From positions 1-26,963 of IMG/VR virus record IMGVR_UViG_3300030328_001922: 26,963 nt of DNA. The stretch is one strand, 5' to 3'. Shown in pieces: positions 5,841-7,223 of the stretch. Position 1 is the stretch's first letter. Each line of letters starts with the position of its first letter. The DNA is from a virus. The position numbers and the translations under genes were made by a program. Under the pieces are notes generated by a model that saw nothing but the letters and a program-made list of their open reading frames with translations, was not told the origin of the DNA and did no database searches.

Positions 5841-6011
5841 TTAACTAAATAGTTTTTCTTTTACAATTTTAAGTGCCTGATCGTCCAATTTGTTATCAGT
5901 TCTAGCAACATAAGCTTCTAATAGGTCTACTACGAGCTTCTTCACTGAATCTGACTTCAAGAAGGCGAATAGGATGGGCTTGATTAATACGATCATTGTT
6001 TTAAAGGACAT
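5841..6011 (-). CDS. Small hydrophobic protein, 56 aa
   Basis: One hydrophobic stretch (IVLIKPILFAFL) near the N-terminus, then an amphipathic, charged C-terminal half ending IVKEKLFS. It looks like a conserved small cyanophage protein of unknown role. Its site next to holin and exported-protein genes makes a lysis link possible. Start is uncertain: ATG at 6011 is used here; an ATG at 5996 forms an ATGA overlap with the upstream stop (51 aa), and a TTG at 6032 would add 7 residues. None has a good ribosome site. Confidence 0.65.
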   Translation of the reverse strand: MSFKTMIVLIKPILFAFLKSDSVKKLVVDLLEAYVARTDNKLDDQALKIVKEKLFS

Positions 6012-6907
6012 GTGGTTTGCGGTTTTTGCCAAGGTTTATACCAAGGCTTGGGTGGTGTTTTGCACTTTACTATCTTTTCTTGTGCTTTTTTCCATGCAGC
6101 TATAGGTATAACATCACTACACATATGATATACCCGTGATCCGGGTAATAACATGAAACCTTTTTGCTGTAATTCAGCACAATTCTTGACACGAACTAAT
6201 TCATAGTCAAGTTTCATCTTATCATGTTGTTGTTTTGCTATACCTCTACATCTATCTAGACCTTCTCTATCTAAAGGAACCATAAAATTTAATTGCATAC
6301 CCCAGTTTTCAGCTACAGTATAACTCTGTTGAGCCATAGTATCATCAAAAGGAGATGTATGATTACCCATATAGAAGGGAGAAAAGGTCATAGTTGCACC
6401 ATTACAGCTTATGTTTGGTCCATAATGCTGTCTGGAGGGTGCTCCATTGTTTTGAAATTGTACAGCTTGGTTTGTAACGTTCCCAGTAGCAGCTGCCACA
6501 GGATTAGATACATTTTTGTCTCCTTCCTCCGCATGTACTGGAGCTATTGAGAGAAGACTGATAAGGATACCGTAGTAGAAGTAGTATCGATTTCGCGATC
6601 TATTTCTGTTATTTCTAGTACCTGACTGGCTGCTCTTGTTACTATTTCTAGTGTAAAGTCCGAACCAGCTGTTGTCATGTTGAATACCGAATCTGAATCC
6701 GCTATACCACCTGACGATGTTGAGGTATGGGTTATATTGTCTCCAGACCATTTGTTTAACGCGGACCCATAAGTTGTGATGGTTATTTCCTCCACTATTT
6801 CTTGGGTCGTTGTCGTTGTTGAATTCATCGACCCTTGGGTAAACTGTGGGGTCACTAATTCTGCTCTTGCTACCGAGGGTGATGCGAGTAGGAAGAGTAA
6901 AAGCCAT
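5993..6907 (-). CDS. Cysteine-containing exported protein, overprinted on the preceding gene
   Basis: The C-terminal ~180 residues look like a real exported domain: a membrane or signal segment YYGILISLLSIAPVHA (111-126) with an AxA-type cleavage site before EEGDK, then six cysteines and motifs such as NPVAAATGNVTNQAVQFQNN, MTFSPFYMGN and YHMCSDV. I recognise this as a cyanophage family of unknown function. The first ~107 residues are Asn/Arg-rich and lie out of frame over the 123-aa gene. No ATG, GTG or TTG exists in frame between 6907 and the hydrophobic segment. So either the whole 304-aa frame is translated from the ATG at 6907, eight bases inside the preceding gene, or a rare start or frameshift is used. 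No classical slippery heptamer was seen. Confidence 0.65.
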   Translation of the reverse strand: MAFTLPTRITLGSKSRISDPTVYPRVDEFNNDNDPRNSGGNNHHNLWVRVKQMVWRQYNPYLNIVRWYSGFRFGIQHDNSWFGLYTRNSNKSSQSGTRNNRNRSRNRYYFYYGILISLLSIAPVHAEEGDKNVSNPVAAATGNVTNQAVQFQNNGAPSRQHYGPNISCNGATMTFSPFYMGNHTSPFDDTMAQQSYTVAENWGMQLNFMVPLDREGLDRCRGIAKQQHDKMKLDYELVRVKNCAELQQKGFMLLPGSRVYHMCSDVIPIAAWKKAQEKIVKCKTPPKPWYKPWQKPQTTCPLKQ

Positions 6908-6915
6908 TTCTTCAT
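6544..6915 (-). CDS. Small secreted protein, 123 aa
   Basis: Starts with a textbook signal peptide, MKKWLLLFLLASPSVARA, with predicted cleavage before ELVTPQ. The mature part is Thr/Ser-rich with beta-type alternation and no cysteine, ending TTSTTVSLSVFSQ. I chose the ATG at 6915: it forms an ATGA overlap with the stop of the holin candidate and has AAGGA just upstream, while the longer frame from 6942 would bury the signal. The family is familiar from cyanophages but its function is unknown. The downstream gene overlaps it for 364 bases in another frame. Confidence 0.75.
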   Translation of the reverse strand: MKKWLLLFLLASPSVARAELVTPQFTQGSMNSTTTTTQEIVEEITITTYGSALNKWSGDNITHTSTSSGGIADSDSVFNMTTAGSDFTLEIVTRAASQVLEITEIDREIDTTSTTVSLSVFSQ

Positions 6916-7223
6916 TCTTCCTTTTTCTTTAACATAGGACAATTTACAGGTGTATTACCTTTACCATTCTTATTACCAGTGGTCAAGCCAAAAGTAGCGA
7001 GTGCTCCCGTAAATACCGAAGCAACGAACGTGATATCTGAGTTACCAGATTTCTTAACTACTGGAATATCAATGTAATTCAATGTTATTATGAACCCGCT
7101 CCAGACAACTACGCCAAGTCTGACGAATGTTCCAAGGATCTGGATTTGGTGTTCTTGATCCTCAGCAGCATCTTTCAGCTTTCCGAGGAGTCCTTTCTTT
7201 TTTTCTTCCGGTTTTCCTTCCAT
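6912..7223 (-). CDS. Holin candidate, 103-aa two-helix membrane protein
   Basis: Charged N-terminus (GKPEEKKKGLLGKLKDAAED), membrane segment one at about 30-52, a short linker with two lysines, membrane segment two at about 63-82, and a charged tail ending LKKKEE. Two spans with a lysine-rich tail is the class II holin layout. The gene follows the tail-fibre group at the T7 gene 17.5 (holin) position. The family looks widespread in cyanophages; the lysis role is inferred from topology and position. It overlaps the previous gene by 49 bases and couples to the next through ATGA. Confidence 0.7.
   Translation of the reverse strand: MEGKPEEKKKGLLGKLKDAAEDQEHQIQILGTFVRLGVVVWSGFIITLNYIDIPVVKKSGNSDITFVASVFTGALATFGLTTGNKNGKGNTPVNCPMLKKKEE

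Follow-up and report, generated by a model that had tools for sequence, protein, structure and literature searches.

Gene organization at the g1/g2 locus

The stretch of DNA analyzed here (the window) is a 26,963-base virus record, a T7-like cyanopodovirus. Its minus strand carries, in order, tail genes, a gene for a 133-aa protein, three genes that we designate g0, g1 and g2, a gene for a 55-aa protein and the small terminase subunit; the large subunit, named by size and position, lies further on. After the terminase, positions 1580-2257 hold a gene that by its sequence resembles transaldolase (talC type), for which the in-frame ATG of MKLFLDTA is a likelier start than the listed upstream TTG. 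The nearest named relative of the g1/g2 stretch is Cyanophage NATL1A-7 (Cheungvirus, Autographiviridae), with a DNA identity of ~75%. The features of the locus are collected in Table 1.

Table 1. Features of the g0-g1-g2 region, in window coordinates
Feature	Position	Strand	Basis
g0, 103-aa holin-like protein, two predicted TM segments (DUF6450)	6912..7223	(-)	Pfam PF20048, E 9e-32; hydropathy
Shine-Dalgarno-like stretch (AAAAAGGAAGA) before both ATG 6915 and ATG 6907	6916..6927	(-)	Sequence
g1, 123-aa exported protein, signal peptide MKKWLLLFLLASPSVARA, phrog_650, C-terminus SVFSQ	6544..6915	(-)	353 distinct relatives aligned
g2 long form, 304-aa frame from ATG 6907, -1 relative to g1	5993..6907	(-)	Frame protection in the clade
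Second in-frame ATG, on a g1 Trp codon (AAA TGG), possible second start	6749..6751	(-)	Homologous start in S-TIP37-like phages
g2 N-terminal arm, ~107 codons, basic, Asn/Ser-rich, middle part little constrained	6587..6907	(-)	Sequence comparison
g2 signal-peptide core and type I cleavage site (YYFYYGILISLLSIAPVHA^EE), overlapping the g1 end	6530..6586	(-)	Site in 416/417 loci
g2 mature domain, 178 aa, four invariant Cys, phrog_1755/848	5993..6529	(-)	Profile match; alignment of relatives

The stop codon of g0 overlaps the start of g1 (ATGA). As an earlier note on this DNA had said, g1 encodes a 123-aa protein with a signal peptide at 6915..6544; nearly the whole protein (residues 2-123) matches the phrog_650 profile (E 1e-30). 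That note also described another frame that overlaps g1 by 364 nt and contains a signal-like segment, and this holds as well: the frame runs without a stop from ATG 6907 to 5993 (304 aa), and the segment (YYGILISLLSIAPVHA) ends at 6530. Its statement that ATG 6907 is the only start before the signal segment was wrong, as ATG 6751-6749, codon 53 of the 304-aa open reading frame (ORF), is also in frame. The six-cysteine domain that it placed downstream was overstated: of the six cysteines in mature g2, only four (C42, C94, C117 and C137) are invariant among 32 aligned relatives. The mature domain of g2 matches the phrog_848 and phrog_1755 profiles with E values of 5e-55 and 1e-47. ATG 6907 lies 8 bases after the ATG of g1, and a single AGGA-like stretch precedes both; of the 69 members of the clade to which the window belongs, 39 have a Shine-Dalgarno-like motif at a distance of 5-20 nt before the 6907 position.

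The predicted start of g2 lies inside g1 and differs between clades

A tblastn search with the 304-aa ORF matched 454 phage records, nearly all of them cyanophages, of both podovirus and myovirus type. Our sample combined 24 named regions with the results of six IMG/VR scans, giving ~435 loci, of which 417 were usable; because the scan queries consisted of the signal segment and the mature domain, the open arm played no part in the choice of loci. g1 and g2 co-occur in cyanopodoviruses and cyanomyoviruses. Relative to g1, g2 lies in the -1 frame at 413 of the 417 loci, and the g1 C-terminus reads [VIT]F[ST]Q at every one. The four other loci (L346, L348, L349 and L353, all S-H38-like) place g2 in the +1 frame; its start there is a TTG, and its signal peptide is short and ordinary. 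P-SCSP1/2 likewise carry g2 in the +1 frame, there with a plain ATG start.

Among 364 distinct overlaps examined, all 362 complete ones have an ATG, GTG or TTG between the last -1 stop and the g2 signal peptide, and the two lacking such a start are both cut by a contig edge. When 353 g1 genes were aligned, the nearest g2 start fell in a few clade-specific columns, so that a single start conserved in all relatives can be rejected. Most of these starts sit on a tryptophan codon of g1, since nnA TGG read one base back gives ATG. P-SSM2-like phages have ATG at one tryptophan column (64/65) and S-H38-like phages at a second (61/65), while a third holds ATG or GTG in 66 of 69 window-like genes and ATG in 47 of 73 S-TIP37-like genes; P-SSP7-like phages start g2 in two further tryptophan columns. 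The base before TGG was A in 64/64, 61/61 and 67/73 cases, compared to 0.49, 0.40 and 0.30 expected from codon usage. From start to g1 stop, the distance ranges from 12 to 120 codons, always ahead of the same mature domain. Judging by these alignments, the predicted start of g2 has shifted from clade to clade, so that the N-terminal arms now measure ~12 to 120 codons. Such relocation among tryptophan codons offers a clean natural series for the lengthening of overlapping genes, with built-in controls in the clades in which the same stretch is not translated.

The g2 frame is protected from stops downstream of its start

We compared the number of -1 stops within g1 with the number expected when synonymous codons were permuted within each gene. 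Upstream of the g2 start, observed and expected stops were 217 and 143 in P-SSM2-like phages, 288 and 168 in S-TIP37-like, 453 and 414 in S-H38-like, and 260 and 247 in P-SSP7-like phages. Downstream of it, the corresponding values were 1 and 292, 13 and 270, 16 and 115, and 12 and 106. Third-base T before AA, AG or GA, which creates a -1 stop, showed the same boundary at the g2 start, and independent changes counted on FastTree trees for three clades agreed with it. Count-based p-values are too small here, as the sequences are related, an effect that the tree-event test lessens but does not remove. Stops in the -1 frame that are at least as frequent as expected upstream and nearly absent downstream are the pattern of a gene that begins at that codon. 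g2 combines an in-frame canonical start within its host gene with protection that begins there, the two sequence marks of an overlapping gene with an internal canonical start. By this comparative evidence, the overlapping frame is genuine and represents a predicted gene.

The earlier note had envisaged relatives with stops across the overlap together with a normal start near the signal segment. Outside the window clade the stops are indeed present, but the start is inside g1, generally 12 to ~107 codons before its end. In S-TIP37-like phages, the stretch of g1 before the g2 start has T at 287 of 433 stop-prone sites, compared to a frequency of 0.36 at safe sites, and the excess -1 stops often fall within a few codons of that start. 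This upstream excess could be a shared ancestral feature or could reflect selection that blocks longer forms.

The arm is little constrained; the signal core and cleavage site are conserved

Changes that are silent in g1 were radical in g2 in 0.35-0.45 of cases within the arm, compared to 0.37-0.47 in most control stretches. In the first part of the window-clade arm there were fewer changes and the radical share was 0.31; in the signal core it dropped to 0.06-0.26. In composition, the arm is Arg-, Asn- and Ser-rich. Behind the hydrophobic core, 416 of 417 loci have a signal-peptidase-I-like site, and the same mature domain occurs in lineages whose g2 signal peptide is short and ordinary. These two observations argue against the suggestion in the earlier note that mature g2 is anchored with its N-terminus inside the cell; in the simplest reading, the arm would be an extended n-region, removed together with the signal peptide.

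The AlphaFold model of g2 had a mean pLDDT of 66 (low confidence). A fold search with g2 matched its own family in a viral library and nothing in the PDB, and a sequence search of the PDB with the g2 profile returned nothing convincing. In P-GSP1 (L012, 1746-2462) and P-SSP3 (L009, 1797-2507), the g2 frame runs without a stop into a small gene homologous to the one that follows g2 in the window (compare window 5841-6008). The small downstream protein may be functionally tied to g2. The fusion in P-SSP3 is possibly a sequencing error, as its close relative P-SSP2 is not fused.

ATG 6907 is the probable main start in the window clade

In the window clade, 0 -1 stops were observed downstream of the 6751 position, against 182 expected, and 13 upstream of it, against 68 expected. 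Between 6907 and 6751, T was found at 13 of 576 stop-prone sites versus 534 of 2866 safe sites, and tree events involving T numbered 6/88 at stop-prone sites versus 232/487 at safe sites (p 9e-15). Among the clades tested, protection reached back to ATG 6907 in this one only. An ATG is present at the 6907 position in all 69 members, in two of them one codon further on with a shifted Trp. The A before Trp at 6907 is not decisive by itself, because P-SSP7-like phages keep AAA there without the Trp. Since the frame is protected back to ATG 6907, the 304-aa protein is probably made in this clade, from an ATG 8 bases inside g1. Translation of a long N-terminal arm, one of the options raised in the earlier note, is therefore probable in the window clade; translation of the whole arm as a family-wide trait can be rejected, as relatives outside this clade have -1 stops in the overlap.

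Use of ATG 6907 is not universal even here, as five members (L083, L088, L091, L094 and L102) have stops between 6907 and 6751. All five keep an ATG at the 6751 position, which is also the homolog of the start in S-TIP37-like phages and of the annotated start in P-SSP10. One might accordingly propose that ATG 6751 is the sole g2 start in the window and that the open frame up to 6907 is incidental. We consider this possible but rather unlikely, given that the frame is protected upstream of 6751 in the window clade and in no other, and that ATG 6751 is itself weakly kept there (57 A, 11 G and 1 C at its first base, with A expected at 0.71). From these comparisons, we conclude that ATG 6907 is the predicted main start in most of the window clade, the window included, and that ATG 6751 is a possible second start.

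More exotic starts fared worse. A programmed -1 frameshift that yields a g1-g2 fusion would fit the -1 placement of g2 at nearly all loci, but the -1 frame is open for up to ~100 codons beginning exactly at a canonical start, leaving no role for a shift near the g1 end. We saw no shared slippery heptamer near the g1 end, nor a -1 frame open only downstream of such a site, and the S-H38-like and P-SCSP1/2 loci with g2 in the +1 frame use ordinary starts; we regard a frameshift as very improbable. Equally hard to sustain is a non-canonical start codon adjoining the signal segment. It would agree with the annotation of 14 of 23 records, in which g2 starts inside or after that segment, but no near-start codon is shared there and frame protection reaches far upstream. 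The unusual start codon or frameshift offered in the earlier note is thus not borne out: a canonical start is present in frame in each of the complete overlaps, and it marks where the stop-free zone begins.

The explanation that we consider likely is that g1 and g2 form a conserved exported pair in which g2 starts at an ordinary codon inside g1, in the -1 frame, with ATG 6907 as that codon in the window lineage. The start would sit on a g1 tryptophan codon, where nnA TGG supplies an ATG one base back. In the window, ribosomes choosing between neighboring out-of-frame AUGs behind one Shine-Dalgarno-like stretch would produce both proteins, and ATG 6751 may yield a second, shorter form of g2. 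The arm would be cleaved off with the signal peptide, in which case both mature proteins would act in the periplasm or envelope.

Possible function of the pair

g1 (phrog_650) and g2 (phrog_848/1755) belong to families of hypothetical proteins. Because the pair follows a holin-like gene in podoviruses, envelope disruption at lysis is our leading guess for its role. A DUF6450 gene stands directly 5' of g1 in the seven other podoviruses tested, among them P-SCSP1/2 and P-RSP2 with their different neighborhoods. In myoviruses, the gene upstream of g1 is phrog_564, which encodes an exported protein rather than a holin-like one, and this counts against a lysis role, itself a guess by analogy.

The pair resembles the lambda Rz/Rz1 two-component spanins (PMC6139136), which are likewise encoded by overlapping genes in different frames, carry export signals and adjoin a holin-like gene. 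The spanin analogy drawn in the earlier note is positional only: unlike Rz/Rz1, g1 and g2 lack a lipobox, and both have cleavable signals in place of an anchor. No Cys occurs in the g1 signal peptide or at the start of mature g1, and g2 has a type I site, so that neither protein carries the lipoprotein signal of an outer-membrane spanin partner and the pair falls outside the spanin definition. A hydrophobic core that might suit an inner-membrane partner is present in g2, with a conserved type I cleavage site behind it. We found no sequence or fold similarity of g1 or g2 to such spanins. A study which stresses that wrong start codons hide spanin genes lists P-SSP7, P-SSM2 and other cyanophages among the phages in which no spanin can be identified (PMC6139136). 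That listing, together with the overlapped exported pair behind a holin-like gene, would suit a g2 that retains its arm and serves as an N-in, membrane-anchored, i-spanin-like partner of g1. The near-universal cleavage site, arm lengths that vary ~tenfold among clades and a g1 without a lipobox make this improbable. A somewhat less remote, still doubtful idea is that g0-g1-g2 could be a lipoprotein-free system of outer-membrane disruption with two cleaved exported proteins, replacing spanins in "spanin-less" cyanophages. In such a system g1 would be a beta-hairpin protein, weakly like pore stems in its model, and in the window clade two out-of-frame AUGs 8 bases apart would share one ribosome-binding site. 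With corrected starts, phages listed as spanin-less are predicted to encode two exported proteins, which matters for the question of how cyanophages open the outer membrane.

g1 was modeled as a long beta-hairpin protein (mean pLDDT 83). In the model of its mature part (window 6544-6861), residues 9-32 and 80-104 form long beta strands that pair with each other. A fold search of the PDB with g1 gave weak hits only (best E 0.04), mainly to beta-pore stems and otherwise to phage tail proteins. In myoviruses, g1 additionally matches Pfam DUF6322. The phrog_564 genes (L020 549-1016, L021 642-1148, L023 540-1034 and L022 999-1451, all cyanomyoviruses) have a signal-like N-terminus in three of the four phages examined and at most marginal likeness to DUF6322, the Pfam family of P-SSM2 g1; phrog_564 and g1 may be an old duplication.

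Known systems and existing annotation

One phage gene whose start lies out of frame within an older gene is the MS2 lysis gene. Like it, g2 begins inside another gene in a different frame; unlike it, the g2 start has been relocated among tryptophan codons of the host gene between clades, with arms of ~12 to 120 codons, and in one clade two AUGs lie 8 bases apart. The cyanophage "gp165" (T4-GC 235) and its neighbor T4-GC 236 belong to the same families as g2 and g1, respectively, and Sullivan et al. 2010 (PMC3037559) noted that T4-GC 235 and 237 are part of a conserved cluster. In the papers that we searched, we did not find the internal start, its shift between clades or the lost signal peptides described, and the literature on gp165, DUF6322, cyanophage overlaps and lysis yielded no study of the g1/g2 overlap.

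Among the 23 annotated records inspected, g2 keeps its signal peptide in 7, starts inside or after the signal in 14 and is absent from the annotation in two (S45-C4 and S-H9-1). Export of g2 has thus been hidden, as 16 of the 23 records annotate it without a signal peptide or not at all. The annotations of NATL1A-7, 9515-10a and P-SSP10, all isolates of the window clade, keep g2 and drop g1.
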